From positions 1 to 31,776 of the IMG/VR virus record IMGVR_UViG_3300030451_001440: DNA of 31,776 nt; one strand, given 5' to 3'. Positions 3,231-29,137 of this stretch are shown one piece after another. Position 1 is the stretch's first letter. Each line of letters begins with the position of its first letter. A program made the position numbers and the translations under genes. The stretch is from a virus. Under the pieces are notes generated by a model. That model saw only the letters and a program-made list of their open reading frames with translations, was not told the DNA's origin and ran no database searches.

Positions 3231-3541
3231 GTTATTGATACGGTTACTGTTCCAACGCTACTTGTAAGTCCAAACGTTGTTAATTCTTCGCCTAATTTTC
3301 CGTCGCCTACGTTAGTGTAAACAAGAAAAAAATTGTTGTCATCTTTTTGTTCTGGTCTGGCGTTGCGTAACGCTTGTGGGTCCTGTGGTACGGGCCTTGG
3401 CATTAACTGTGGATGTTTTGGGTCAAATTGGTCTGGGCCGACTAATAAACCGTCCCAGGTTCTTTTCATGTCTTTTAATTTATAACGGAAACCTGTTATG
3501 TCGCAGATCCCGTAAGCAAATTTACCCGATGCAAAAGCCAT
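3227..3541 (-). CDS. Virion-operon protein with degenerate zinc-ribbon-like segment
   Basis: A 104-residue protein. Residues about 7-60 read FAYGICDITGFRYKLKDM, then TWDGLLVGPDQFDPKHPQ. In related phage proteins I recall the same frame as C-x2-C-GFR...L...W-GL-VC-x2-C-(W/Y)-EP(R/K)HPQ, a zinc ribbon. Here the framework (GFRYKL, W-GLLV, DPKHPQ) is kept but only one of the four cysteines remains. The C-terminal third is Thr/Gly/Val-rich and beta-like. It overlaps the adaptor gene by 4 bases and starts on the last base of the previous gene's stop. Probably a small structural or assembly protein. The family link rests on recall. Confidence 0.65.
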   Translation of the reverse strand: MAFASGKFAYGICDITGFRYKLKDMKRTWDGLLVGPDQFDPKHPQLMPRPVPQDPQALRNARPEQKDDNNFFLVYTNVGDGKLGEELTTFGLTSSVGTVTVSIT

Positions 3542-4236
3542 TATGCGTTGTTGTAACTGCGAATGTCTGGAGATATTCTAAAAGATGCCCTATCTTCATC
3601 TTGAGATAGAGCTCTTGTAAACTCTTCTTCGTACATGCTTTTCAGCATAGCGGTCCTTTCAGGTGCTCTTTTCATAGATATGTAATAAGCAAGGCCCGCA
3701 GTCAAACATGGATAAAAACGAAATGGCACTTCCATAGTATTGGTTGCTGAATCTGAATCATCCATCCTGGTTAAAACATTCATAACCACAGTGTAAGTGC
3801 TTGATTTATCTGGCGCTGGCCACACTGAAATTGTCGGTGTAATTTGTTTGTTTACAAAATATTGATTGGGTTTGCCTGTCGATGATTTATTAACAATATG
3901 TGAGTATTCTGCTCTGCTTAACCTGGTCATAGGCAAATCTGTTGTTTCTGAGCTTACTGTTTCGCGTATAAAGACGTCTAATACATCTATGGGTGCTGTA
4001 CCATTGGTACTATCAATATTGTATTCTGTGGTGTCTTTGACCATGGTTACGGTTTTTTGTGCAATGGTCCACTGATTCAAGCCTCTGTTGGCCCACTCTG
4101 CTAACATTAGATTTAAACTTCTGTTAGCGCTTTTTAGATCGTAACCCGTACGCAATTCTAAACCACAACGCTCAAAAGCCTCTTCTATATATTCGGCTAC
4201 GTCTGGCTCAAAATTTTTACTGTTAGATGTCGCCAT
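3541..4236 (-). CDS. Virion structural protein, connector type
   Basis: A 231-residue protein. The N-terminal helical region contains DVAEYIEEAFERCGLE and SLNLMLAEWANRGLNQW; beta-rich segments (YNIDSTNGTAPIDVLDVFI, TISVWPAPD) and a C-terminal helix (FYPCLTAGLAYYISMKRAPE, MYEEEFTRALSQDEDR) follow. Its organisation parallels the downstream adaptor (helical N-terminus, beta middle, C-terminal helix with Pro-Glu-Arg). The two may therefore be distant relatives forming successive rings between portal and tail, like gp4/gp11-type proteins of short-tailed phages. It abuts the 226-residue protein (1-base overlap at 4236) and the 104-residue gene. Structural role likely; precise role unknown. Confidence 0.7.
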   Translation of the reverse strand: MATSNSKNFEPDVAEYIEEAFERCGLELRTGYDLKSANRSLNLMLAEWANRGLNQWTIAQKTVTMVKDTTEYNIDSTNGTAPIDVLDVFIRETVSSETTDLPMTRLSRAEYSHIVNKSSTGKPNQYFVNKQITPTISVWPAPDKSSTYTVVMNVLTRMDDSDSATNTMEVPFRFYPCLTAGLAYYISMKRAPERTAMLKSMYEEEFTRALSQDEDRASFRISPDIRSYNNA

Positions 4237-4916
4237 TAATCCTCCGTGTCGTTATACAAGTTATCAAAAACTCGATTTACGTCTAAAGTATAGTCTAAAT
4301 CAGATTTAGAATAATGTATATGTTGAGAGGGTCGGAAATCGGGTGCCCCTTCTCCATAAGCAAACCAAGCTGGATGTGTAACTCGGACACGATTATTAGG
4401 TAAAGCCACAATGTTACCTGTCCATTCACCAGCATCTAAAAGCTCCATAACGTGACTTTGTTTATGTTGTGCTGGGTCATCCGCAATCTCGCTTTCAGTA
4501 TAATCAACTGTAAACATGTATTTAGCTGGGTAAAACTCACCGTCTATTTTTGCTATCCAGGGACAAGGTGTTGCCCTGTCAATCACATAAACCGCATGAT
4601 GATGGGATGAGCAATCCCAGGGTTGTGCATCATGTACGGCCATAGGTTCTGGCCATTCCTCCAAAACTGTGTCACCGACTAGGCCTGTAATCGGCATCCT
4701 GGCCCACATAGCACCTCCATGAACCGTATCTTCTGGTTCGCCGTCTGGAGCTATGCCTGTAAATATAACTTGAAAACTTAGACACCTGCACGGCATTGAT
4801 GTGACACCAACTGCCATGGCATGTAAAAACTCACCATGGTATTCCTCATGGTTATGAGTGTATTCTTTTCTAACCCAACACTTAAAATAGGGTATGTTTG
4901 AATGTAAGTACGCCAC
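4236..4916 (-). CDS. Conserved His/Trp-rich virion-operon protein, unknown function
   Basis: A 226-residue protein unusually rich in His, Trp, Tyr, Cys and acidic residues. It contains the segments EYTHNHEEYHGEFLHAMAVG, VHGGAMWARMPITGLVGD, CSSHHHAVYVIDRATPCPW and GEWTGNIVALPNNRVRVTHP. The first and third segments cluster His and Cys in a way that could bind a metal. I recognise the protein as recurring in marine phage genomes between the basic-protein genes and the connector genes, always without a known function. No signal peptide or membrane segment is present. Its start lies 20 bases after the preceding gene. It could be a virion component or an enzyme. Confidence 0.7.
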   Translation of the reverse strand: MAYLHSNIPYFKCWVRKEYTHNHEEYHGEFLHAMAVGVTSMPCRCLSFQVIFTGIAPDGEPEDTVHGGAMWARMPITGLVGDTVLEEWPEPMAVHDAQPWDCSSHHHAVYVIDRATPCPWIAKIDGEFYPAKYMFTVDYTESEIADDPAQHKQSHVMELLDAGEWTGNIVALPNNRVRVTHPAWFAYGEGAPDFRPSQHIHYSKSDLDYTLDVNRVFDNLYNDTED

Positions 4917-4936: not shown

Positions 4937-5299
4937 CTACTTTCTGCCGTAAAGGCCCATGTTTTTCTTGCCATTCATTCTTCTTCTGCCGCCAGTAGCA
5001 CCGCCTTTTGACATCATTTTGCCGCCTTTTTGCATTTTTTTGGTGGCAATTTTCATATCTTTTTTAGAAATAGTTTTGCCAGTCTGGCCAATGGTTTTTT
5101 CAGCGGCCGTTAATGCTTTTTTTCTTTTAATGGCGCTTAAAAATTTTTCTCCTTGTTTGCCAATAGGCTTGCGCTTGCGTGGTCCCTTTGTCGGGACAAT
5201 TTTTTTCTTACCCCTTTTTGCTCCGCCTCCGACACTATAACCTTTAGCTTTTGCTTTACCGCCAGCTCTCATGCCTTTAGCTTTCATTTTGTGTTTCAT
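4937..5299 (-). CDS. Lys/Gly-rich basic protein (putative nucleic-acid-binding virion protein)
   Basis: A 120-residue protein with about 41 Lys+Arg against 3 acidic residues by hand count. It is built of repeats such as GGKAKAKG, KRGKKK, KGPRKRK, KGGKMMSKGG and GGRRR. It ends NMGLYGRK, nearly the same C-terminus as the next gene (NMGLFGRT). The ATG at 5299 has a weak-to-fair ribosome site (AGGAG, 5303-5309 region). It is the last of six consecutive basic small genes between virion genes. Such composition suggests DNA or RNA binding, for instance condensing packaged DNA or being injected with it. That is inference; no named domain is recognised. Confidence 0.65.
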   Translation of the reverse strand: MKHKMKAKGMRAGGKAKAKGYSVGGGAKRGKKKIVPTKGPRKRKPIGKQGEKFLSAIKRKKALTAAEKTIGQTGKTISKKDMKIATKKMQKGGKMMSKGGATGGRRRMNGKKNMGLYGRK

Positions 5300-5307
5300 A
5301 TTTACTC

Positions 5308-5616
5308 CTATGTTCTGCCAAATAAACCCATATTTGACTTATTTTTAATTATACCGCCATTAGCGGCAAAAGTTTTTACATTTGTAGGTTTACCGCCTAC
5401 ACCCTGTTTTTTAGCACGTTTTCTTCTAACCGCAGATTTGATTTCTGATTTGGTCATGCTTTTAGCTTTTGACCTGGGGACACACTTTGGATATTTTCTT
5501 TTAGACCCTTTGGTCGAGGCCCGACCGCATTGTTGAAATTTGCCGTCTTTTTTTGGCGCACCGATATCTACCCAATCACCTTTGGGGCCTTTACCAAACC
5601 ATTCTTTTAACGACAT
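5308..5616 (-). CDS. Basic protein with WVDI...CGR...YPKCVP motif
   Basis: A 102-residue protein. The N-terminal half reads KGPKGDWVDIGAPKKDGKF, then QQCGRASTKGSKRKYPKCVP, then MTKSEIKSAVRRKRAKKQG. The two Cys with flanking Arg/Lys and the fixed spacing look like a small structured domain, possibly metal-binding. I recall this motif from small proteins of marine phages and from large algal viruses (a DUF5872-like family, from memory). The tail is basic and ends KSNMGLFGRT, shared with the neighbour's NMGLYGRK. It starts one base inside the stop of the preceding gene (TAATG). Function unknown; a nucleic-acid-associated virion protein is a guess. Confidence 0.65.
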   Translation of the reverse strand: MSLKEWFGKGPKGDWVDIGAPKKDGKFQQCGRASTKGSKRKYPKCVPRSKAKSMTKSEIKSAVRRKRAKKQGVGGKPTNVKTFAANGGIIKNKSNMGLFGRT

Positions 5617-5768
5617 TATTTATACTTTTTACTTTTTACTTTACGGCCTTTATTTTTGCCGCCCGTCCTGGCTATTAAGCCTCGAGCTTTTGCTTGGGCC
5701 TTTTCACTAAATCCTAGTTTTTTACCAGATCTAATTTTTTTCTTAATTGTACTAACTTTTGCGACCAT
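5616..5768 (-). CDS. Very small basic protein
   Basis: I place the start at the ATG at 5768 (MVAKVSTIKKKIRS...), giving 50 residues with 19 Lys/Arg and one acidic residue. The frame is open further upstream to 5852, but that extension would overlap the preceding gene by 100 bases; the chosen start overlaps it by only 17. The sequence is a single amphipathic region (KIRSGKKLGFSEKAQAKARG) followed by a basic tail GGKNKGRKVKSKKYK. The SEKAQAKARGLIARTGG part is helix-forming. It is one of the basic cluster; function unknown, nucleic-acid binding plausible. Confidence 0.55.
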   Translation of the reverse strand: MVAKVSTIKKKIRSGKKLGFSEKAQAKARGLIARTGGKNKGRKVKSKKYK

Positions 5769-6090
5769 GAGCTTTTCTAATAGAATCTTTACCTTTTCTA
5801 AATATATTAGCGACGCCTTTTTTACCCATAACTTTGGCCCTTTGTTCGCCAACCGTCAAGATTTGTATTTTTCTGGCAAAAGGTTTTTTAATTCTTTTTA
5901 CCTTATTTACTGTAGCCGTAGCGTCGGCCATAGTCTTAAACTTGATGCTTACGGTATCTTTGGGGTTTTCATCTGTATATAAACGTCTACCAGAACCTTT
6001 TGGTTTTTTACCAGTGCCGACTTTTGGATCTCTTTTCTTTTTAGACCCTTTACTTACAGATTTGCCAATGCTACTTCTGCTTATAGCCAT
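5752..6090 (-). CDS. Basic protein with compact central domain
   Basis: A 112-residue protein. A disordered basic N-terminus (SVSKGSKKKRDPKVGTGKKP) is followed by a region that looks folded: GSGRRLYTDENPKDTVSIKF, then KTMADATATVNKVKRIKKPF, then ARKIQILTVGEQRAKVMGK. The middle pattern of strands and one helix suggests a small alpha/beta domain, and the end is again basic (KAHGRKS). It starts MAISRSSIG five bases after the preceding gene. I do not recognise the family by name. The combination of a folded core with basic tails, in the same operon as five other basic proteins, hints at a DNA-binding virion or injected protein. Confidence 0.65.
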   Translation of the reverse strand: MAISRSSIGKSVSKGSKKKRDPKVGTGKKPKGSGRRLYTDENPKDTVSIKFKTMADATATVNKVKRIKKPFARKIQILTVGEQRAKVMGKKGVANIFRKGKDSIRKAHGRKS

Positions 6091-6095
6091 GGTTT

Positions 6096-6569
6096 TTAAC
6101 TTCTAGGCACCCTAGTAGGCTTGCGTTTGCTATTCATAATTGCGCCACAACCTCTAGCTTGAAGTGTTACAGGTCCACCGTCTTTCATAAAACCCATCTT
6201 ATTTCTAACTTTTGTAGGTAGTTTAGATAAGCCTTTGCCTTTATTGCCTGCTGGTATTGGTCTTAAATTCTTATTACTCACTTCGCCTCCTTCTGCTTTT
6301 TTTGCACCCTTATACTTACCGCCTCTTTTTTTGTAGGTTTTTACTAACCAGGCGTTTGCATAAGCAGACGGATAAACGTCAAACTTTCTTTTTGCCTCGG
6401 ATTTAACTCTTTGATACAAAGAAGGGTTAGCTACGTTGCTTGGTGTTTTAGATTTAGCACTGCCGCCCTTACCAAACTTAATACCCTTTAAAGTTTTAGC
6501 CTGTTGTGCGTGTGTTTTACTTGCTTTCTCTAGGCCTTTAATTACTTTATTTACTTTTCTTTTTGTCAT
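6096..6569 (-). CDS. Basic protein with PSAYAN-W-YKKRGGKY motif
   Basis: A 157-residue basic protein. Residues about 50-95 contain SLYQRVKSEAKRKFDVYPSA, YANAWLVKTYKKRGGKYKG, a motif (R-V-K-E-A-K-K-F, P-S-A-Y-A-N-W-V-Y-K-R-G-G-Y) that I have seen in many marine phage and giant-virus small proteins. The rest is low complexity: a helical N-terminus (KGLEKASKTHAQQAKTLKG) and a Gly/Lys/Pro-rich C-terminus with MKDGGPVTLQARGCGAIMNS followed by KRKPTRVPRS. It follows the 97-residue gene after five bases. Function unknown; grouped with the other basic proteins as possibly packaged with DNA. Confidence 0.65.
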   Translation of the reverse strand: MTKRKVNKVIKGLEKASKTHAQQAKTLKGIKFGKGGSAKSKTPSNVANPSLYQRVKSEAKRKFDVYPSAYANAWLVKTYKKRGGKYKGAKKAEGGEVSNKNLRPIPAGNKGKGLSKLPTKVRNKMGFMKDGGPVTLQARGCGAIMNSKRKPTRVPRS

Positions 6570-6574
6570 AATTA

Positions 6575-6868
6575 TTACCAGTTTTTACAAGACCAATAAC
6601 CAGCTGTAAAGACATCCTTCTTTTTTTGGACGGCATCGCAATTATGCCTGGCCCGAAAAGATTTTCGCCTTGCTGGTTGGTCTTTTTTGATTGACATTTT
6701 GGGGTCGCCGTATCTTACGATTTTAACTTGGTCGCCCTTTTTTGCTAATACGGCAAACTTTTTCTTGGCTCCAGGTGTTCTTTTTTGTTTGTTATAACCA
6801 GGAAAAGACTCGCCGCGGTAGGAAAGCCTACCGCTGGCTGATCTTTTGACATCTTTGGTCGTTGCCAT
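6575..6868 (-). CDS. DUF5754-like small protein (RARHNCD...AGYWSCKNW)
   Basis: A 97-residue protein ending in a strongly conserved type of C-terminus. The order is KKFAVLAKKGDQVKIVRYGD, then MSIKKDQPARRKSFRARHNC, then KKKDVFTAGYWSCKNW. I recall this pattern as a family of uncharacterised proteins (DUF5754, from memory) in marine phages and in large algal DNA viruses. The His, two Cys and clustered aromatic residues in the last 30 residues could coordinate a metal. The N-terminus is basic and flexible. It begins the block of six basic genes and follows a virion-type gene by three bases. No biochemical role is known to me. Confidence 0.7.
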   Translation of the reverse strand: MATTKDVKRSASGRLSYRGESFPGYNKQKRTPGAKKKFAVLAKKGDQVKIVRYGDPKMSIKKDQPARRKSFRARHNCDAVQKKKDVFTAGYWSCKNW

Positions 6869-6871
6869 AGA

Positions 6872-7276
6872 TTAGTCGTATTTCTTGATTAACTCCAAAA
6901 TAATCATGTAGCTGTCGCCACTCGAATGGCCAGTCGTGGTAAAATCGAGGTCTCCCGTTTTACCAGAACCAGCATTATTTGGAATCGCGGTGAATGTATC
7001 GTAATATTCATCGCCAGTTGAATCGGCTGGTAAACCAATAGCTAATACGTTTGTACTTGCATCAAAATCTATTTTTACCGACATGCCAACACAAGACCAC
7101 CATATTCTTTGTATATGGACTTCTGTGCATGCTTGCCCTTTTGAATTAGACCCTAATGCAGAAACGTCTACTTTCTTTACAGCAGATTCACCCGTGCCGT
7201 CTGATACGTTAGTGAACCGCAAAACAGCAGTTCTTTCACCATCTTGAATGGTTTGAGAGGTTACTGCGTCTGCCAT
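6872..7276 (-). CDS. Conserved virion-associated protein
   Basis: A 134-residue protein (MADAVTSQTIQDGERTAVLR...). It contains SDGTGESAVKKVDVSAL, VHIQRIWWSCVGMSVKIDFD and a C-terminal GDSYMIILELIKKYD. Strand-rich, with no signal peptide or membrane span. I recognise it as a regular neighbour of the preceding gene in marine phages, in the stretch between capsid and connector genes, where virion decoration or fibre-base proteins would be expected. It starts one base after the stop of the preceding gene with a weak AGAGAG ribosome site, so it is probably translated by coupling. Confidence 0.7.
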   Translation of the reverse strand: MADAVTSQTIQDGERTAVLRFTNVSDGTGESAVKKVDVSALGSNSKGQACTEVHIQRIWWSCVGMSVKIDFDASTNVLAIGLPADSTGDEYYDTFTAIPNNAGSGKTGDLDFTTTGHSSGDSYMIILELIKKYD

Positions 7277-7277
7277 T

Positions 7278-7994
7278 TTATCTCTCTACGATAGCTGTAA
7301 CGTAATCAATAGTCATGGTTTTGGCCGCGGCCTCACCGTTTTGAATACCGAATGATACAGTTAATTCTTCATTGTCTGGTAGATTAGTGTTTACAACACC
7401 GACTGGCTCTGCATTATTAACAGAGTAATGAACCAATGATGTATCTGGGTCTACAAAGAAAGCTACGGTAACAAAAGTATCGTCTGCCATTGTATGAATT
7501 GCAGTTGTATCTGTCGATGTGCTGTCTTTTTCAACGATAAAGTCAAGGTTTGTATCACCGTCGTCTTTAATAAAGAAAATACCGTCTGAAACCGCTAATG
7601 GAGTGGTGTCAGTGATTTGTAGGCCCATAACAAAGTCAGATTGAGTTGCGTCACTAACTTTAAACCTAGCTGAAAAATAAGCTCTTTTTGAGCCAGTTAT
7701 TAAAAAAGACTCGCCTTTTAGTTGTAGAAAGTCTAAGTCGTTATCGCCAGCCGCGTTAGTAAGCAAAAGTTGACCACCAGCACCAGAAGTAATTGCCTCT
7801 GTTGCGGAGCCTGTTCCTGCCTCGGTTGTTGTAACTGTCCAGTCACCACTGTTGTAGGTCATAAAATCATTGAAATAACCATAGTGTGTTTGGTCAGAAG
7901 GTAAAGGCACAAACATCGGTTGATCTTTTTTTGCCTTCGTTGCAACGGTGTTACCCGCCCATTGGATTTGGTTTTGAAAATGTGGATTAGCCAT
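7278..7994 (-). CDS. Virion structural protein, jelly-roll-like
   Basis: A 238-residue protein, first gene of the tail-side operon, with a strong AAAGGAG site before MANPHFQNQIQW. After about 35 residues the sequence alternates short hydrophobic strands with Asp/Thr/Gly turns: GYFNDFMTYNSGDWTVTTTE, KRAYFSARFKVSDATQSDFV, VTVAFFVDPDTSLVHYSVN and a C-terminal MTIDYVTAIVER. This is the look of a concanavalin-like sandwich as found in phage decoration and fibre proteins. A palindrome and a short hairpin lie in the 90 bases upstream. Exact role unknown; could be a capsid or tail decoration protein. Confidence 0.7.
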   Translation of the reverse strand: MANPHFQNQIQWAGNTVATKAKKDQPMFVPLPSDQTHYGYFNDFMTYNSGDWTVTTTEAGTGSATEAITSGAGGQLLLTNAAGDNDLDFLQLKGESFLITGSKRAYFSARFKVSDATQSDFVMGLQITDTTPLAVSDGIFFIKDDGDTNLDFIVEKDSTSTDTTAIHTMADDTFVTVAFFVDPDTSLVHYSVNNAEPVGVVNTNLPDNEELTVSFGIQNGEAAAKTMTIDYVTAIVER

Positions 7995-9946: not shown

Positions 9947-10864
9947 TTACGCACCTTGTGATCCGAAGATTCCTCTCCAATCAGAGAAACCAAATGAGTA
10001 TCTTTCACGCGCTTTGTAACGGATGTTACCAGTTGAGAAATCTGGTTCCATGGATGTTTCCATGCCAGTTCTCTGGAACATTTTAAGGCCATCGCCCATC
10101 GCTGTTACAGAAGTTAAGATGAAGTATGCGTCTGGGTCGTTCAGATAATGGTTTACTGAATAGCCGCCAGGAAGAACACCTGTGTTCTTAATAGCGTTCA
10201 AGTCATTATCAGATGTTCCAGTTCTGCCTGGTGAATTAAGAATCCTATCAGCAACGAAAACGAGTTGCGGAGGCACAATTAATTTATCGGCTTGCACGGA
10301 TATGGTTAATCCTTTGTCATCTGTGAAAGTTGAGATACTAATTAAATCGTCCTCTAATGAAGTTTCATTAAGGTCGGCCATAGTTGTTTGTCTATTAGCC
10401 GCTGTTCCACCACCTGCAAGTGGGTGAGCAGTGTTAATTAATGAAACACCGTCTCCTCCAGTAAAGCTGGATGAGAAAGCATTATTGAGAACGTCCGCAC
10501 CTTTAACCTCTTTGGTATGAGCCATAGATTTTGCTAGTGCTTTAACGTATCTTTTCCCGAGTGAGTCGTAAAGGTTATCTTCAACAGCCTCTTCTGTTAG
10601 AGCAAACGCTAACGCCACTGTATCGTGGGTGTAACGTGCACTGAAACTTTCAGACGCGTTGTCAAAGACTACTCCTTGACCTTCGGTTTTAGTCGGCGCA
10701 GATCCGAAGCCAGTAATTAATACTTCTTCTTCAAAGGCACGGTTGGAATCTTCAATAGTGAAGATCTCTTCGTATTCACGATCGTATTCATCATAGTTAA
10801 GACCAAATAATGAATTCAGACCTGGTTCTAGCTCTTTAGCTAGTTGAGCTCTTGATATTGCCAT
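9947..10864 (-). CDS. Major capsid protein (HK97-like fold)
   Basis: A 305-residue protein. The N-terminal region (SRAQLAKELEPGLNSLFGL) is followed by GFGSAPTKTEGQGVVFDNAS as the E-loop-like part. The central helix region has ALTEEAVEDNLYDSLGKRYV and KALAKSMAHTKEVKGADVLN, and the late part has PPQLVFVADRILNSPGRTG and ARERYSFGFSDWRGIFGSQ. This order, the length, and the place after scaffold and decoration genes are those of a Mu gpT/SU10-type major head protein. A strong AAGGAG site precedes it and a strong terminator follows it. No scaffold-like N-terminal delta domain is fused; a separate scaffold gene is present. Confidence 0.88.
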   Translation of the reverse strand: MAISRAQLAKELEPGLNSLFGLNYDEYDREYEEIFTIEDSNRAFEEEVLITGFGSAPTKTEGQGVVFDNASESFSARYTHDTVALAFALTEEAVEDNLYDSLGKRYVKALAKSMAHTKEVKGADVLNNAFSSSFTGGDGVSLINTAHPLAGGGTAANRQTTMADLNETSLEDDLISISTFTDDKGLTISVQADKLIVPPQLVFVADRILNSPGRTGTSDNDLNAIKNTGVLPGGYSVNHYLNDPDAYFILTSVTAMGDGLKMFQRTGMETSMEPDFSTGNIRYKARERYSFGFSDWRGIFGSQGA

Positions 10865-11958: not shown

Positions 11959-12902
11959 TTTGCCTCCCTGTTGGCTATTTTTTGTTTTTCTTTAGCAACA
12001 GATTTCAACCACGCATCTTCTGTCATATTGTGTGGTTTCAACCCTCTGAGACGCTCAACTTCCGATTTAGAGAAAGTTACACCGTTCTTTTTGCCTTGTG
12101 TTTTTTGTCGACCTCCCACAGAGGTTGAGGCGACTCTTTGCACAGCGGGTCTACCTTCTGATTGCTCGACATTACCAGATGGTTGAAGATCTGGATAAAC
12201 TTTATAAACGCGGCTATTTAACTGGTCATAGTATTCTTGTGAATCAGCCTCATAGCCTTCGTTAATTAAATTAAAATGAGTAAAGTACGCAAACTGCGTA
12301 GCTTGTTGATTGGTTGGGTCAGAATCATCGCCGTACCAAGAGTTTTCAGAGTGCCACTCTTTGGCCTCTCTGGAGGGTTCTGGTTGCGGTTGTGCTTGCG
12401 CTACCTGCTCTGGTTGTTGCACAGGCATCGGATTCTGGAAATTTTGTTGTTCTGCTTGTTGTTTTGCGATTTTAAGTTTTTCTTTTTGAATACTTAAATC
12501 GCTTTTTAAGGTATCAGCCTTGCTTATTAATTCAGCGTCATTAGCTTGTATTGCTTTTTTATACAAATCATCGGCTTGTAATTGTTTGGCCTCCAAGGCC
12601 TCTTCTTCTTTGACTAAAAGCTGGGCCTTAGTTTCTTGTGCTTGTTTCAACATGCTTGCTGTTTCCATTTCTTTTTGGGCCAGCATTTGCTCTAACCTGG
12701 CCGCTTTTTCCTCTGCGGCTCTGTTACGCTCATTTAGCTTGTTAATTCTTTTTGATACACCTTTTGTGTAATTCTCTAACTCATCATCCGTAGAAACAGA
12801 TTCGGCTTTTGCCTCTGCGTTTTCTACTTGTTCTACTACCTCTACTTCTAGCTCTTCAACCTCTGGCTGAACAGCTTGAGCATTTTCTTGTTCACTCATC
12901 AT
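11955..12902 (-). CDS. Scaffolding protein
   Basis: A 315-residue protein with the classic scaffold composition. It has an acidic N-terminus (EVEELEVEVVEQVENAEAK), a long coiled coil at residues about 50-150 (NKLNERNRAAEEKAARLEQM and similar), a Gln/Pro-rich linker (PVQQPEQVAQAQPQPEP) and a basic helical C-terminus (DAWLKSVAKEKQKIANREAK) that would contact the capsid protein. It sits between portal-side genes and the capsid gene, as scaffold genes do. The first codons are ATG-ATG; either may start translation. Its start overlaps the GroES-like gene stop by 4 bases. Confidence 0.85.
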   Translation of the reverse strand: MMSEQENAQAVQPEVEELEVEVVEQVENAEAKAESVSTDDELENYTKGVSKRINKLNERNRAAEEKAARLEQMLAQKEMETASMLKQAQETKAQLLVKEEEALEAKQLQADDLYKKAIQANDAELISKADTLKSDLSIQKEKLKIAKQQAEQQNFQNPMPVQQPEQVAQAQPQPEPSREAKEWHSENSWYGDDSDPTNQQATQFAYFTHFNLINEGYEADSQEYYDQLNSRVYKVYPDLQPSGNVEQSEGRPAVQRVASTSVGGRQKTQGKKNGVTFSKSEVERLRGLKPHNMTEDAWLKSVAKEKQKIANREAK

Positions 12903-13318
12903 AAACTCACTATGTCATCTGGATTGAGAATGGTGGCTATGACCTCATCATCATTGATGATTCTAACCTCCGCACCATCTTCAAGTTTAAACCTAGAGCC
13001 AGAGTAGCGCCCTATTAAAACCCATTGTTTTTCTTCGCACCATGGCTTATCACCGTATCTTGCTTTGTCGTTGTAACATTGTGGCCCCATTTTAACCACA
13101 TAAGCCACGACGGTTGCCAGGGCCTCCCTATTTACTGTTTCTTTTGCTAATACTATACCGCCTTTGGTTTTTGCCTTACCTGCGTATGGTAAAACCAACA
13201 TTCTCCAACCCGTAGGTTGTGGCATGCGGTCTAAAATTGATTTGTCTAAAAGTTCTGGATCCAAAATTCTATCATCGGGATCTATATATGCGTCTGCCAC
13301 TTTTTTCGTTTCTGCCAT
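12899..13318 (-). CDS. GroES-like co-chaperonin
   Basis: I start at the ATG at 13318 (MAETKKVADAYID...), with AAAGG six bases upstream; an in-frame TTG two codons earlier is less likely. In the 139 residues, GWRMLVLPYAGKAKTKGGIV corresponds to the first strand and mobile loop of Cpn10, and GRYSGSRFKLEDGAEVRIIN with DDEVIATI to the C-terminal beta-barrel. The barrel interrupted by an ALATVVAYVVKMGP strand is GroES-like. Phage co-chaperonins (gp31 type) replace host GroES on the host GroEL ring so that the capsid protein folds. It lies directly upstream of the scaffold and capsid genes. No GroEL homologue is visible, so a host partner is inferred. Confidence 0.8.
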   Translation of the reverse strand: MAETKKVADAYIDPDDRILDPELLDKSILDRMPQPTGWRMLVLPYAGKAKTKGGIVLAKETVNREALATVVAYVVKMGPQCYNDKARYGDKPWCEEKQWVLIGRYSGSRFKLEDGAEVRIINDDEVIATILNPDDIVSL

Positions 13319-13320
13319 TA

Positions 13321-13500
13321 TCAACCTTTATATATGTCGCTAAGTTCGTTTGCAATATAGTATAAAGCACTTAGCTCACCTTGCAAATATTTATAATGTT
13401 CAATATCTTTTAGGCCACCAGACATTAAAGTCTCTTGAATTTGCTTTTCTCGAGTTTCAATAAGTTTTTTAACTCTATCGAGTAAATCTATATCATCCAT
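13321..13500 (-). CDS. Small helical protein between AT-hook protein and co-chaperonin
   Basis: A 59-residue ORF, MDDIDLLDRVKKLIETREKQ, then IQETLMSGGLKDIEHYKYLQ and a GELSALYYIANELSDIYKG end. It starts at the ATG at 13500, overlapping the stop of the preceding gene (TAATG), and its TGA sits three bases before the co-chaperonin ATG. It is a two-helix coiled-coil-like protein. Without it the 175 bases here would be the only empty stretch in the head operon. I recall similar short proteins at this position in marine phages; function unknown. Confidence 0.72.
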   Translation of the reverse strand: MDDIDLLDRVKKLIETREKQIQETLMSGGLKDIEHYKYLQGELSALYYIANELSDIYKG

Positions 13501-13832
13501 TATTTTTTAGTTTTGGATTTTGCTGGTCTACCTCTTTTCTTTGCTGGCGCTTTTTTTGCTGTGGTTTTCTTTGCTGTAGTTTTTTTAGGCGTTGCTTTTT
13601 TAACCTCTCTTTTCTTGGGTTCTGGCTTTGCCTCTACAACAGGTTTTGGGTTCGGGACAACGCCACCCGCATCAATTATTTTTTGTTTTGCGGCTATTCT
13701 TGCGTCGCTGGCCTCTTTTTTTGCTTGCGCCGCCATTATGGCTTTTGCATGATCCTGCATTTCTTGGGCCCGCTGTTTTGCTTTTTCATGTTTTAGCTTT
13801 GTTACGGCCTCAAGTTTATAAGATGTTGTCAT
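13500..13832 (-). CDS. AT-hook, histone H1-like basic protein
   Basis: A 110-residue protein. The N-terminal 60 residues form a charged helix (KLKHEKAKQRAQEMQDHAKA). The rest is a Lys/Ala/Pro tail (KPVVEAKPEPKKREVKK, ATPKKTTAKKTTAKKAPAKK) ending in an AT-hook core KKRGRPAKSK. The AT-hook RGRP inserts into the minor groove of AT-rich DNA; the tail resembles linker histone C-termini. It sits between portal and co-chaperonin genes, so it is likely made late and may act on packaged or replicating DNA. Whether it is in the virion is unknown. Confidence 0.72.
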   Translation of the reverse strand: MTTSYKLEAVTKLKHEKAKQRAQEMQDHAKAIMAAQAKKEASDARIAAKQKIIDAGGVVPNPKPVVEAKPEPKKREVKKATPKKTTAKKTTAKKAPAKKRGRPAKSKTKK

Positions 13833-13833
13833 A

Positions 13834-16317
13834 TTATCTCCTAAGTTTACTCTCTAGCTCTAGCAATTTTAGATCTGCGTTTTGCTTTAATCTGTCAATA
13901 GCTACCTCGAGTTTATCATCTGCGATTGATTTTTGCACATTGATACGTTCTTTTTGTAAATCTGCGTCCATCAATTTTTCTTGCGCTCTTTGTTCTTGTT
14001 TTGCTACAAACTTATTAGCATCAAGGTCTAACTCTTTATCTTTGAGTGCTAATTCTGTTTTCCTGATTTCCACAAGAGGATCTTCGCTTGAACCTTGACC
14101 TATGGACTGGAGAAAATCATTGGTAAGTTGGGCCATGATTGGAGCGCTAAATTGGTCTAAAATCATCTGTATTTGTTGACCAATTTGTTGAGCCTCTTGT
14201 GGAGTAACTTGTTGCATCTGCGCTTGAATCTCTTGAATACGCATTTGCGTTTCTTCTGGTATCTGTTCTTGAGCTAACTGAGCAGATAAGAATTGTAAAT
14301 GTTGCATGCAATGACTAATGATAATTGACTGAATTTGTGGATTTTCTTGAACAATGCTTGTTAAGAAAAGACTTTTATGTGCATCTAAGTGAGCCGCGTG
14401 GTTTTGTTGCTCAAAGGCTTGAGCTGGCTGTCCCATCAATAATCCAGAGTTTTCAATACCCGCATCAATCGGTTTTGGTGTCATATCGGGTGGCGGCTGT
14501 AACAATGAATCTACATTGTCCACACCGAGAGCTGAATACATACGTCGATAAGCCTCGTAAATACCCATAGGGCCATGCACATCGGGCGCAGATTGAACCA
14601 TCTGTAGTAATTCTTGTGCCAAGGTTACTCTTTGACTTTGTGAAAATATGTTTGGGTCTGATACGGGAATAACGTCTATACGGCCGTCAAAGTCCATGCT
14701 TTTGATTTCTTGTGACCCAGAGCCAACAGCAAACTCATAGACTGGTGGCAGATACTCTGCAAAAACCTTAGAAAGTATCTGGAACTCCATCTTTTGTGCG
14801 TAATGTAATCTTTTGTGAATCGCAGACATTACTTTCGTACCGCGCTCTAATAAAGCTACAGTAGTGCCTACAGGCATCGCTTGGTTCATATCCCCAACGT
14901 TCATGTCAGCTATTGCCGCAAAACGTTTACCAGAGTCTACTAACAATCCCAGTAATTGCATCAACACACTGCTTGGTTCTTTAATCGGTAAAGGTATTAG
15001 GTTTTCTCTAAGAGAACCGCCTGTAGTGTCTATATCTCTAAACTCTCCTGGTTGCAGTGGCTCATCCTCATCCCTAATACGCATACCTCTGGCTTTAAAA
15101 CCAGCTGGTAAGTTAGCTAATGTACCGCTGTCAATAAGTTGTCTTAAGATTGATGTAGAGGCTTTAGATAGGCCACCAATCATGTGTGATAAGCCTAATC
15201 CGTAAAAACCTAATCCTGGCAAAAACTTATATTGGACAAAGTAATTAATTTTATTTTTAAGTGGGTCTGTTTCTAAAAAGTTTCTTCTAATAGATAGAAC
15301 AGTCGAAGAGTCCTCATCTATGGTAACGATGTAAGGTAATTTAAGGCCAGTTGTTTGGCCCGTTTCATCCATATCCTCAAAACCAGCAATGTCTAAAACG
15401 GTATGAATTTCGTAAATCGTTCTATTTCTGTCCTCTTTGTAGCTTGGCTCTACACCTTGAATATCATCAATAGCCTTTTCTATTTCTGATTCAGTGTCAT
15501 CATAAGTTTCTTCGTTAATTTCTACGTTTGCATAGAAACCAGTAAGTTGTTGTTTTCGTACTTCATTTAATGACATGCTGATTGCATGGGTAATCCTTTC
15601 AGCCGAAGTTATATCCGAGGCCTCGTAAGGTACAATTAAATCTTCTGGGGGTATAAACTTAGATACTGCTTTGCCTGTAACGCTGTCATAATAAATCTTT
15701 TTAAATGCAGACCCAGCCAACGGCAAGTAAAACAAAAGCATATCAAGCTCTGGGTCATAGTCACTCATTACATTCATAATGTAATAATTCATAAACTCTT
15801 GAACTCTCTCAGCTTGATCTTCGGTTTCTATGGTCCTGGCACCAATGATTTCTGTTTTTACTGGGCCTTTCGGCGGCAACATTTCTTTATAGGCCTGGGC
15901 CTGGAATTGAGTGACCGCCTCGGCCAGTATTGGGTGTATTACTCCAGAGCTACCTTCAAAGGGTTGAGACCTAGATTCATCAAACTTCATGCCTAAGTAT
16001 TTAAGGCCGTCTGTGTAAGTTTTTTCCCACTCCGACCTGGATTGTTTGTCTGTTTTGATTGAGCTTAGTAAGTCAGAGGCTATTTTTTGTAAAGTAGATT
16101 TATCTATAAAATCAACTAAATTTGAATCGAACGGCACTTGTGGCGTCGCTGGTTCCAACATTTCATCATCTAAAAGCACCTGTTCTTCATCGACGATTAT
16201 TTGAGCGGCGTTCGCTATCTGTTCTTGTCTTGTTTCTTCTGGAAAAACCTCAACCGTAGTAGATTGATTTTTTATATCAGGTGAATTTTCAGCGTCTAAT
16301 ACTTTTTCTACTGCCAT
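13834..16317 (-). CDS. Portal protein
   Basis: An 827-residue protein, the size of large podovirus portals. The N-terminal region leads to SRSEWEKTYTDGLKYLGMKF; the core contains PVKTEIIGARTIETEDQAE, FLPGLGFYGLGLSHMIGG, RQLIDSGTLANLPAGFKARG and NQAMPVGTTVALLERGTKV. These are typical SU10/P22-type portal signatures. The C-terminal part is Gln-rich (QAQMQQVTPQEAQQIGQQ) and ends in a charged coiled coil, consistent with the barrel. Dodecameric at the DNA-packaging vertex by family. It is next to the large terminase, separated only by a 60-residue gene. Confidence 0.88.
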   Translation of the reverse strand: MAVEKVLDAENSPDIKNQSTTVEVFPEETRQEQIANAAQIIVDEEQVLLDDEMLEPATPQVPFDSNLVDFIDKSTLQKIASDLLSSIKTDKQSRSEWEKTYTDGLKYLGMKFDESRSQPFEGSSGVIHPILAEAVTQFQAQAYKEMLPPKGPVKTEIIGARTIETEDQAERVQEFMNYYIMNVMSDYDPELDMLLFYLPLAGSAFKKIYYDSVTGKAVSKFIPPEDLIVPYEASDITSAERITHAISMSLNEVRKQQLTGFYANVEINEETYDDTESEIEKAIDDIQGVEPSYKEDRNRTIYEIHTVLDIAGFEDMDETGQTTGLKLPYIVTIDEDSSTVLSIRRNFLETDPLKNKINYFVQYKFLPGLGFYGLGLSHMIGGLSKASTSILRQLIDSGTLANLPAGFKARGMRIRDEDEPLQPGEFRDIDTTGGSLRENLIPLPIKEPSSVLMQLLGLLVDSGKRFAAIADMNVGDMNQAMPVGTTVALLERGTKVMSAIHKRLHYAQKMEFQILSKVFAEYLPPVYEFAVGSGSQEIKSMDFDGRIDVIPVSDPNIFSQSQRVTLAQELLQMVQSAPDVHGPMGIYEAYRRMYSALGVDNVDSLLQPPPDMTPKPIDAGIENSGLLMGQPAQAFEQQNHAAHLDAHKSLFLTSIVQENPQIQSIIISHCMQHLQFLSAQLAQEQIPEETQMRIQEIQAQMQQVTPQEAQQIGQQIQMILDQFSAPIMAQLTNDFLQSIGQGSSEDPLVEIRKTELALKDKELDLDANKFVAKQEQRAQEKLMDADLQKERINVQKSIADDKLEVAIDRLKQNADLKLLELESKLRR

Positions 16318-16319
16318 AA

Positions 16320-16502
16320 TTAGTGTAATACCTTTGGCTCAAGTTCCGTTTCATGTGCCTGTATTATGTCTTGTAATTCACCCATAACCACTAATCCTTG
16401 TGACTCAGCAATAAGTTCAGCATTATCCATATTTTCTGCATGAATGTTAGGTCCTGCAAATTCTTCGCCGTCATGGGTAAATTTAGTTATATATATCTTC
16501 AT
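16320..16502 (-). CDS. Small protein between terminase and portal
   Basis: A 60-residue protein, MKIYITKFTHDGEEFAGPNI, then HAENMDNAELIAESQGLVVM and GELQDIIQ. The beta-beta-alpha-beta pattern (KIYITKF, AENMDNAELIAESQG, LVVMGELQ) suggests a compact alpha/beta fold. It starts at 16502, one base inside the terminase stop, and ends two bases before the portal gene. I recall small proteins of this form in the same slot of marine phages. Too small and too acidic to be an obvious small terminase; no role is assigned. Confidence 0.68.
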   Translation of the reverse strand: MKIYITKFTHDGEEFAGPNIHAENMDNAELIAESQGLVVMGELQDIIQAHETELEPKVLH

Positions 16503-17986
16503 TAATAATATACTTGTCTGTTAGATTTTAAAAGCCTTACCTCGTCTTGATAATCTTCTTCAAGTGAAACAAAACCACCTTGTCTAAATCTCATCAAAGC
16601 CATTGTAGCACTATCGCAATAGTCATCATAATCGCCAAATGGAAATGATGCCATTTCCTCAATCACTTCGTCGGCAAAATCGTGATCTGGGGCCCAGACC
16701 ATACCCGACTCAAATATCGGCGCTACAGAATTCATCCTGGCTATTTTGTCTTGGCCGCGACTAGGACTGTAAGCTGTTACAGGAATACCCATACGCCTTA
16801 GTTCGTGGGTCAAAGGTGTTCCAGAGGCTTTTGCCTCTATTAAGACACAATCTGGATTCCAATATCTGTATTCTTCCATAGCAAGTCTTTTGAGCTCTGG
16901 AAAGTCCACTCTTACTCTTTTTGCATCTAAAAGGATGATTGCATCGGCCGTTTCATCGCCTGCGTTAAATATGGCCCAGGTTGTGATTGCAGAATAATCC
17001 GCAGTTTCTTTTTTAGAGAAGGCAGTATCATAGCTTTGTATAACATACGAATACGGTGGAATATCCTCATATTCCCACCTTTTCCACCACTCTCTTTTGA
17101 CAATAGATCCTTCCTCTGCTGTAGGGTTTTGCATCCACTGTGAGTTCCATTTACTAACGGGCAAAGAGGCTTTGACACCTAGCAATTCTTCCTTCTTCCA
17201 AAACTCTGGCCATAACGGTTTTTCGGACTCTGGCATAATCGCAGGAAATTCAACAACATCCCATTGGTCGGCATTGTCATCGCCTTGTTTTTGTAAAACT
17301 TTACCAACCAGGTCTTTTGTTGACCATCTTGTCATTACTATCACTATAATACCGCCTGGTTGTAAACGTTGCCTAGGTCCAGAGGTGTACCATTCATAGG
17401 CACTTTCTAGCGCTTTTGGTGAAAGCGCATCTTGTTCAGAGTGCGGGTCATCAATAACTAATAGGTCAGCACCACGTCCTGTAATCGCACCACCGACACC
17501 AGCGGCAAAGAATTCACCGTCTTGGTTGCTTGTCCACCTGCCAGCTGATTTGTTATCGGCTTGTAGTTTAGTGTCTGGAAAAATATGCTGATACTCTTCG
17601 CTGTCTATAATATTTCTTACTTTACGGCCAAACCTTACCGCTAATTCAGCTGTGTGAGTTGTTTGTATTATTTTAAGATTACCTCTACGGCCCATCATCC
17701 AAGCAGGAAAAAAAGTAGAGGCAAACTCTGATTTAGAGTGCCTTGGTGGTAAACATACTATGAGTCTTTTTAATTTACCGTCCGCTATCTTGTTAAACTT
17801 ATCAGCTATTATTTTATGGTGACGACCTTCAATAAATTCTGGCCACATGTGTTTTACAAAACCAATAAAATCTTTTTGACAAGCATCCTGCTTATCTAGC
17901 TGTTCGTATCTATTTAAAAGAGCTACAGCCTCGGCTTTGTCTTGCTCAGACAATATATCAAAATCTTTTAGGGAAACATCACTCAT
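16502..17986 (-). CDS. terL: Terminase large subunit
   Basis: A 494-residue protein with both terminase domains. The N-terminal ATPase has Walker A LPPRHSKSE at residues 79-87, Walker B LLVIDD at 175-180 and a coupling motif TRWSTKDL near 219. The C-terminal RNase H-like nuclease has acidic residues in QSYDTAFS (Asp320), VLIEAKASG (Glu384) and DDYCDSATMAL (Asp458). It drives DNA into the prohead through the portal and cuts the concatemer. The first gene of the head operon, it follows a 102-base gap with a large palindrome. No small terminase gene was recognised in the window. Confidence 0.92.
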   Translation of the reverse strand: MSDVSLKDFDILSEQDKAEAVALLNRYEQLDKQDACQKDFIGFVKHMWPEFIEGRHHKIIADKFNKIADGKLKRLIVCLPPRHSKSEFASTFFPAWMMGRRGNLKIIQTTHTAELAVRFGRKVRNIIDSEEYQHIFPDTKLQADNKSAGRWTSNQDGEFFAAGVGGAITGRGADLLVIDDPHSEQDALSPKALESAYEWYTSGPRQRLQPGGIIVIVMTRWSTKDLVGKVLQKQGDDNADQWDVVEFPAIMPESEKPLWPEFWKKEELLGVKASLPVSKWNSQWMQNPTAEEGSIVKREWWKRWEYEDIPPYSYVIQSYDTAFSKKETADYSAITTWAIFNAGDETADAIILLDAKRVRVDFPELKRLAMEEYRYWNPDCVLIEAKASGTPLTHELRRMGIPVTAYSPSRGQDKIARMNSVAPIFESGMVWAPDHDFADEVIEEMASFPFGDYDDYCDSATMALMRFRQGGFVSLEEDYQDEVRLLKSNRQVYY

Positions 17987-28342: not shown

Positions 28343-29137
28343 TCAACTGGCCTGGTTTAATCCCTGGAACTTTCTGTTTAGGATTTTGTGGACTTTGTGG
28401 TAGGGAAAGTCCTCATAGCCTTTGTGTAAATTTTGCACCTGTTTGGCAATCCTTCTAGCACCTAGGCCACGCTCTTTGCAGGCATAGATTGTTTTTAGAA
28501 CCTCTTGTTCTTCGGGTATGGGAACCAATTTGGCTCTCCTTTTGTTGTTACCAAAATATTCATATTCTTTTTTGTAGCCAAACGGGGTGTGACCGCCGAT
28601 CGAATAACCTTTTTCGGCCCAGGCAATCTTGCCATTATTAAACCTGGACATAATTAGGTCCCTTTCAAATTCTGCGAACTGCGCTATGGTTGCTAACAAA
28701 TTACGGTTGTTTATCCTGGCCATGTCTAGTTTGGCCTCTAGGCCAGTGGATTCTTCGTCTTTAGGTAAAACTACTGGTGTATCACCAAACATTTCACAAA
28801 AGTAAAGCGTAATACCTGTGTCCTCCAATGTTGGCACCATGTTTAACATGTCATAAAAACCTCTGGCAAACCTGTCTAGCTTAGTGGTTACTATCACGTC
28901 ATGCCTGTCCATGATGTCAGTTAAATCTCTGGAGCCTGGTCGATCGACTAAGTCCTTCATGCCACTAACGCCAGCGTCAATAAAGAATTTATCGACGGGC
29001 CTGTTGAACTTAGCCTGGACAAACTGTTCAATAGAATTTTTTTGGTCGTCCAAAGAAGAACCTTCTTTGACTTGTTGCTCCGAAGAAACACGGACATAGC
29101 CGTAAATGTTATTAATTTGTTTGCGCGGTTGTATCAT
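28343..29137 (-). CDS. Serine recombinase (resolvase/invertase family)
   Basis: A 264-residue protein. The N-terminal catalytic domain carries YGYVRVSSEQQ (nucleophile Ser18, Arg16), VDRPGSRDLTDIMDR with Arg66 and KLDRFARG (86-93). A long alpha-E helix follows (IAQFAEFERDLIMSRFNNGK), then a Recombinase-type second domain (KGYSIGGHTPFGYKKEYEYF). It is shorter than large serine integrases and longer than classic resolvases. It has AAGGAGGCCGC before its ATG and is the last gene of the leftward early run. It may integrate the phage, resolve multimers or invert a segment; no att or inverted-repeat site was found. Confidence 0.85.
   Translation of the reverse strand: MIQPRKQINNIYGYVRVSSEQQVKEGSSLDDQKNSIEQFVQAKFNRPVDKFFIDAGVSGMKDLVDRPGSRDLTDIMDRHDVIVTTKLDRFARGFYDMLNMVPTLEDTGITLYFCEMFGDTPVVLPKDEESTGLEAKLDMARINNRNLLATIAQFAEFERDLIMSRFNNGKIAWAEKGYSIGGHTPFGYKKEYEYFGNNKRRAKLVPIPEEQEVLKTIYACKERGLGARRIAKQVQNLHKGYEDFPYHKVHKILNRKFQGLNQAS

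Follow-up and report, generated by a model that had tools for sequence, protein, structure and literature searches.

The internal proteins IPI, IPII and IPIII of phage T4 are packaged together with the DNA, bear a capsid-targeting leader sequence and are cut by gp21, with an (L/I)xE cleavage consensus. The prohead proteases of T4 and of giant phages cleave after Glu, and the T4 internal proteins enter by means of a short N-terminal targeting sequence (PMC5694885, PMC9958956). In T4, some 1000 molecules of internal protein are embedded in the DNA, with their lysines in contact with the phosphates (PMC3012670). The 31.8-kb window analysed here, the whole 31,776-nucleotide stretch of IMG/VR record IMGVR_UViG_3300030451_001440, is a fragment of a marine tailed phage whose head and tail genes all lie on the minus strand, and it contains six consecutive minus-strand genes, from position 6868 to 4937, whose products carry between +20 and +36 net charges per 100 residues. 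We read this block as a cassette of modular make-up whose products, small and basic virion proteins, are most likely enclosed with the DNA in the phage head, where they would neutralise its charge; we give this reading a probability of roughly 0.55. Judged by analogy, the best explanation is that the cassette proteins function in the manner of the T4 internal proteins without belonging to that group by sequence. They too are small and basic, each phage encodes several of them, some lineages do without them, and they are encoded in the head-gene region; homologues of one of them carry a T4-like leader and a candidate Glu site before the basic domain. Unlike the T4 proteins, those of the window have no T4-type leader in their open reading frame (ORF) translations, display no detected sequence relation to the T4 group and are known from their genes alone.

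The first gene of the block, g6575 (6575..6868; minus strand, as for the whole block), encodes a 97-amino-acid (aa) protein of the RARH...YWSCKNW family (phrog_7595, E-value (E) 2.3e-19), with a net charge of +20.6 per 100 residues and a ratio of non-synonymous to synonymous substitution rates (dN/dS) of 0.075. The second, g6096 (6096..6569; 157 aa; +22.3), is a fusion of an N-terminal KVIKGLEKASKTHAQQAKTLK module, a DUF5872 core with the motif PSAYAN..YKKRGG and a C-terminal GG..ARGCGAI..RKPTRVPRS peptide. Its match to DUF5872 (PF19197, E 3.1e-9), a family of algal giant viruses and phages, scores 37.9 bits against a curated gathering cut-off of 27.5 and makes it a member, the match covering only positions 3-54 of the 116 in the profile; unlike bare DUF5872, the core is fused to the additional module and peptide. 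The third gene, g5752 (5752..6090; 112 aa; +24.1), represents the GSGRRLYTDENPKDTVSIKF...QRAKVMGK family and has 74% identity in the SAR11 phage HTVC033P. The product of g5616 (+36.0; dN/dS 0.144 over 44 pairs) has 15 K and 4 R. The sequence-only reading was right about the number of genes and less so about this boundary: g5616 most likely spans 5616..5768 (50 aa), starting with an ATG at 5768 within the 3' end of g5752, and is not the 78-aa TTG ORF. Invariant W15-V-D-I, C30-G-R and Y42-P-K-C45 define the family of g5308 (5308..5616; 102 aa; +22.5; phrog_23735, E 1.7e-23), named WVDI..CGR..YPKC, which is encoded in at least 599 IMG/VR stretches; the C-terminal end of the window protein is NMGLFGRT. 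The last gene, g4937 (4937..5299; 120 aa; +31.7; C-terminal end NMGLYGRK), has its position taken in relatives by variable, fast-changing KGG-repeat proteins. A relation of g5308 and g6096 as paralogues was rejected at 0.4% probability. Among Pfam histone, HU and protamine profiles, none matches the block proteins, the only hit below the cut-off being a chance match to a BRCA2 repeat.

The Lys/Arg-rich character of the six ORFs and their place, as first read from the letters, agree with the ORF calls and the computed charges. For g4937, the quoted 41 basic and 3 acidic residues agree exactly with the count (32 K and 9 R against 1 D and 2 E), and the three quoted motifs are found in g5308, g6096 and g6575. 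Of the 56 genes called in the window, seven are strongly basic and six of these are consecutive, an arrangement with a permutation probability of about 2e-5. The median pairwise dN/dS in the given frames is 0.07-0.21 across all six block genes, these ratios being approximate, with high dS values; the capsid and adaptor genes have 0.07-0.08, and most block genes evolve faster than these neighbours. All six block genes are under purifying selection. Given this range of dN/dS, the six ORFs are true protein genes, and an artefact of composition or antisense reading is ruled out by dN/dS together with the homologues.

The g6575 domain may link the cassette to the interior of the head. In Vibrio phage P018-4 this domain (E 1.6e-21) is fused to a Peptidase_S78_2/XkdF prohead protease (PF14550, E 3.1e-12), and the fusion gene is located between the portal and major capsid genes; in KBS-S-2A the domain is encoded by a free gene between the minor head and coat genes. 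The P018-4 protein, an XkdF-type protease that includes a g6575 domain, is a full-length member of phrog_1530 (E 2.8e-127); the label 'DNA methyltransferase' of that group looks like an annotation artefact, its proteins being XkdF-like. The profile of phrog_220 (minor head protein / DNA pilot), a mosaic in which one domain is matched, also holds the g6575 domain. Unlike these large head proteins, g6575 of the window is a free protein. In the T4-type pelagiphages of the HTVC008M type (L381-L460), the g6575 domain is preceded by the leader MK[TS][LF]KQ and then by [LI]xE[AS]. Leader and site are present in 21/21 non-redundant sequences, which are homologous and hence not independent; the [LI]xE[AS] motif is found in 17% of the ORFs used as background and in 9% of shuffled sequences. 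On this pattern, the HTVC008M-type proteins are candidates for new internal head proteins of pelagimyophages. The fusion and the leader together suggest that the cassette proteins are probably located inside the head.

A virion association of the cassette is likely, with good support through homologues in phages whose particles were characterised by mass spectrometry. Two of the relevant modules are DUF5872 and the g5308 family; a third is DUF6321 (PF19846), which occupies the first slot of the block in many close relatives and is fused with other modules in cyanophages, and whose profile finds no match in any block protein of the window. The virion proteins of S-SCSM1 were identified by mass spectrometry (PMC9602691), and its protein SSCSM1_29, annotated as 'virion protein', combines DUF6321 (E 1.4e-13), a visible DUF5872-like PSAYAS motif and a region similar to g5308 (E 4.6e-15 with an iterated profile). 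Table 3 of the S-CREM2 virion proteins (PMC10665884) includes the products of 108049-109521 (gp137, 4 peptides) and 128342-129235 (gp160, 7 peptides); gp137 has DUF6321 (E 2.1e-23), and gp160 has a DUF5872-like match (E 4e-4) and, with the iterated profile only, a g5308-like one (E 1.6e-7). A census of the whole records of three phages characterised in this manner (S-SCSM1, S-CREM2 and S-SZBM1) with unmodified profiles revealed no module proteins beyond these three and SSZBM1_192, the DUF6321 protein of S-SZBM1. The virion lists thus hold 3/4 module proteins where about one in five would be expected (p ~0.03 by our estimate), a count consistent with packaging but modest. SSZBM1_190, annotated as 'virion structural protein', was rejected as a cassette member, as it matches no module. 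Virion association, initially proposed from gene order, is in this way backed independently of it, both by the listed homologues of S-SCSM1 and S-CREM2 and by the fusion of the g6575 domain to a protease.

The same two virion lists contain NMNAT/cytidylyltransferases, SSCSM1_91 of S-SCSM1 (L174:38819-40048) and gp154 of S-CREM2 (L461:24608-25468). Their starts, MKSFLQFLKEA and MKNFSSFLTEA, resemble the T4 capsid-targeting leader, and a T4-like leader may explain the repeated detection of NMNAT in cyanophage virions.

The position of the block is a conserved feature of related phages. Its upstream border is a gene for an acidic small protein (6872..7276, minus strand), probably a capsid decoration protein to judge by position, for which PHROG and Pfam searches returned no match. 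Downstream lie a gene for an acidic 226-aa protein (4236..4916, minus strand; phrog_3704, labelled 'ferredoxin') and the gene for the portal-tail adaptor (SU10_adaptor; 3541..4236, minus strand; PF24175, E 1.5e-12). We sampled IMG/VR with the adaptor protein, so that loci were not picked through the basic genes themselves. At least three basic ORFs fill the slot in 31/38 contigs containing both borders, and the acidic 226-aa protein is kept in 33/38 sampled slots. With a minimum of 45 aa, basic genes account for 146/205 (71%) of the genes in the slot and for 13/360 (4%) of those elsewhere in the same 38 contigs; the loci share kinship, and a Fisher p-value for this enrichment overstates their independence. 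Decoration and adaptor genes flank the block in all close relatives, which confirms the order between capsid-side and connector-side proteins that had suggested a virion role.

Within the slot, the genes are exchanged and recombined. Comparison of about 150 loci indicates that shuffling has shaped the block, a cassette made up of at least five uncharacterised families, Pfam DUF5872 among them. Slot one is taken by the RARH..YWSCKNW protein or, in many relatives, by a DUF6321 protein; the two have the slot and an RRKSF.AR stretch in common, and distant homology between them was rejected at an hhalign probability of 7%. The two parts of g6096, the KVIKGLKKASK..HAKQAKTLK module and the DUF5872 core, stand alone in L058, L067 and L073. 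The C-terminal peptides NMGL[FY]GR and RGCGAI..RK.TRVPRS are swapped among g6096, g5308, g4937 and the KGG-repeat proteins—in L084 the g5308 homologue carries the peptide of the g6096 type—and the two peptides were found in 0 flanking structural families and in 14 of ~1,700 unlabelled ORFs. These exchangeable peptides may, speculatively, be targeting tags. Four loci (L084, L144, L153 and L159) have ORFs of 540-864 aa inserted into the block after slot one and before the DUF5872 gene; these are net acidic with coiled-coil-like stretches, and are possible ejection proteins.

Rapid shuffling of modules and tags, along with the replacement of slot genes, resembles the behaviour of a diversifying set. 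Such a set would suit proteins that are packaged but have their main role in the new host, where, ejected with the DNA, they might shield it from nucleases or bind the host nucleoid, RNA polymerase or ribosomes. The T4 internal proteins are diverse and have such a role, IPI* blocking a restriction enzyme (PMC3012670), and the same cyanophage virion lists include co-packaged enzymes such as NMNAT. However, the five families themselves show strong conservation (dN/dS 0.07-0.21), which is not typical of an arms-race set, and no defence-related match was found; we hold a principal role in the new host to be unlikely.

The cassette recurs, relocated, in cultured SAR11 and roseobacter phages and in one freshwater lake phage. 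In CRP-2, HTVC106P, C72C1 and DSL-LC04 the order is mostly a RARH or DUF6321 gene, a DUF5872 gene and a gene of the g5308 family; the latter two are adjacent in HTVC023P and HTVC027P, and in HTVC027P the basic cluster lies between the portal and the GroES/capsid genes. The main text of the HTVC027P transcriptome study (PMC12753301) does not name the cassette genes. A second sampling of IMG/VR used the DUF5872 domain alone and sought the g5308 family within about 6 kb, finding it in 57/74 loci. In T4-like phages the modules appear as fusions: SSM2_109 of cyanophage S-SM2, a 708-aa protein encoded between TerS and TerL, joins an N-terminal module of the g5752 family (E 2.8e-25) with the g5308 family (6.6e-8), a DUF5872-like stretch (0.003) and DUF6321 (2.3e-14), and 41/70 distinct DUF5872 ORFs have a second module. 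Fusion of this kind is classical evidence of shared function. A scan of GTDB for DUF5872 gave 37 matches, nearly all on contigs of marine metagenome-assembled genomes or single cells, which are probably phage or provirus DNA.

The distribution across capsid types bears on a structural alternative, in which the proteins bind the inner shell or the portal vertex, forming a basic cement between the capsid and the outer DNA layer like adenovirus protein V, and do not condense DNA. Conserved folded cores with paired cysteines would fit such binders, as would a location next to the decoration and adaptor genes, seen in all close relatives. The capsid proteins of DSL-LC04, HTVC023P and HTVC027P are related to that of the window (59-62% identity). 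But related capsid systems exist without the block (QDWS535, RW and L143), and the cassette is also present in phages whose capsids were not found as relatives of the window's, CRP-2, C72C1, HTVC106P and HTVC033P being absent among the matches of the search with the window capsid protein. This makes a cement role very improbable.

Several observations weigh against packaging in the head. SSZBM1_192 is not in the virion list of its phage, and the proteins detected by mass spectrometry are large fusions in distant myoviruses, not close relatives. The authors of the S-CREM2 study caution that some non-structural proteins may co-purify (PMC10665884). The T4-like leader is not enriched in DUF5872 proteins of T4-like contigs (4/70 vs 71/992), and as a general signal in DUF6321 or DUF5872 proteins it is unsupported. 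The block is dispensable, for L143 and L126 keep head and tail genes with no basic gene in the slot. In HTVC033P a run of seven consecutive basic ORFs lies close to an amidase gene and not to head genes. AlphaFold2 gives g6575 an N-terminal beta domain (predicted local distance difference test score, pLDDT, ~86-90 over the first 30 residues and 71 overall) and a weaker C-terminal helical part, and gives g5308 a weak mixed fold (pLDDT 63); neither fold, at this moderate confidence, matches a solved structure. The structure prediction proposed alongside the sequence-only reading yielded folds for these two proteins but no solved counterpart. Part of this evidence would be expected of late nucleic-acid-binding proteins that are never packaged and act in the infected cell, for instance by binding ribosomes or, at packaging sites, by compacting phage DNA after its replication: the HTVC033P cassette stands beside lysis genes, copurification is possible in the cyanophage lists, and these lists come from phages other than that of the window, a point that also counts against packaging. 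Set against this, 3/4 module proteins appear in virion lists that hold roughly one protein in five, and the g6575 domain occurs fused with a prohead protease, which renders a purely intracellular role quite unlikely.

If the proteins are packaged in the head, their expression would be late, along with the head genes, as the operon position suggests. They would enter the prohead before DNA packaging, as the Vibrio protease fusion and the pelagiphage leader with its candidate site imply, and their presence in the finished particle would correspond to the published detection of homologous multi-module proteins, made in two T4-like cyanophages only. Lys/Arg contacts would then neutralise part of the DNA charge, to judge from composition and from T4 (PMC3012670), and ejection with the DNA could follow. 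The arithmetic is feasible: the six proteins contribute about +161 charges per set, and at some 60 copies of each, 10% of the phosphates in a 50-kb genome would be offset. The sequence-only reading is supported as to virion association and confirmed as to gene order; DNA condensation and the coating of host DNA are plausible from charge and the likeness to T4, and for liquid-like assembly sites no evidence in either direction was found.

Virion-packaged basic proteins are a known kind; the families that build this cassette are not known to be related to any internal protein described so far. Among PHROG, NCBIfam and Pfam head-protein families, none matches any block protein over its whole length, and sequence search detected no significant relative of solved structure. 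Adenovirus core, histone H1-like and protamine-like proteins are likewise basic, and low-complexity Lys/Arg-rich parts are present in g4937 and in a seventh basic protein of the window, g13500; this likeness is one of analogy only. We tentatively suggest a wider picture, less probable than not, of a mobile, recombining 'virion chromatin' cassette, in which at least five unrelated basic families are distributed across unrelated marine and freshwater tailed phages, with DUF5872 also in algal giant viruses; in small phages they would be encoded as clustered free proteins, in T4-like ones as a single fusion, and they would be loaded into the head through exchangeable C-terminal peptides.

Few viruses of the sea are as abundant as the phages of SAR11 and roseobacters, and the papers searched describe no set of internal DNA-associated proteins for them. 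DUF5872, DUF6321, phrog_23735, phrog_7595 and phrog_727 belong to the most common 'unknown' families of genes in ocean phages; if packaging holds true, they would make up one functional group with a testable virion role, and would represent a system outside T4 for neutralising packaged DNA and for determining which proteins enter the host.

The other genes of the window, on the minus strand like the block, include TerL (16502-17986), portal (13834-16317), major capsid protein (9947..10864; phrog_371, Phage_capsid_4) and a tail gene. Two acidic genes (6872-7994) lie directly upstream of the basic block; net charges per 100 residues are -6.0 and -8.4 for the two upstream neighbours and -8.8 and -2.6 for the two downstream. 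The seventh basic gene, g13500 (13500..13832, minus strand; 110 aa; +20.9 per 100 residues), adjoins the portal gene, and its product, with 28 K and 5 R, has an H1-like Lys/Ala/Pro tail TPKKTTAKKTTAKKAPAKKRGRPAKSKTKK with an AT-hook-like GRPAK; it has no PHROG or Pfam match. A GroES/Cpn10-like gene (12899-13324, minus strand; PF00166, E 5.9e-7) is found between the portal and scaffold genes, a position matched in DSL-LC04, HTVC027P, CRP-902, Pag-Yong1, QDWS535 and RW. The minus strand also encodes a 264-aa serine recombinase (28343-29137) with a resolvase N-terminal domain (PF00239, E 6e-25), in a phage that is otherwise lytic-looking. A Staphylococcal-nuclease-like gene (PF00565; 18537-18917) and a T4-type lysozyme gene (PF00959; 18089-18661), both on the minus strand, overlap by about 125 bases.

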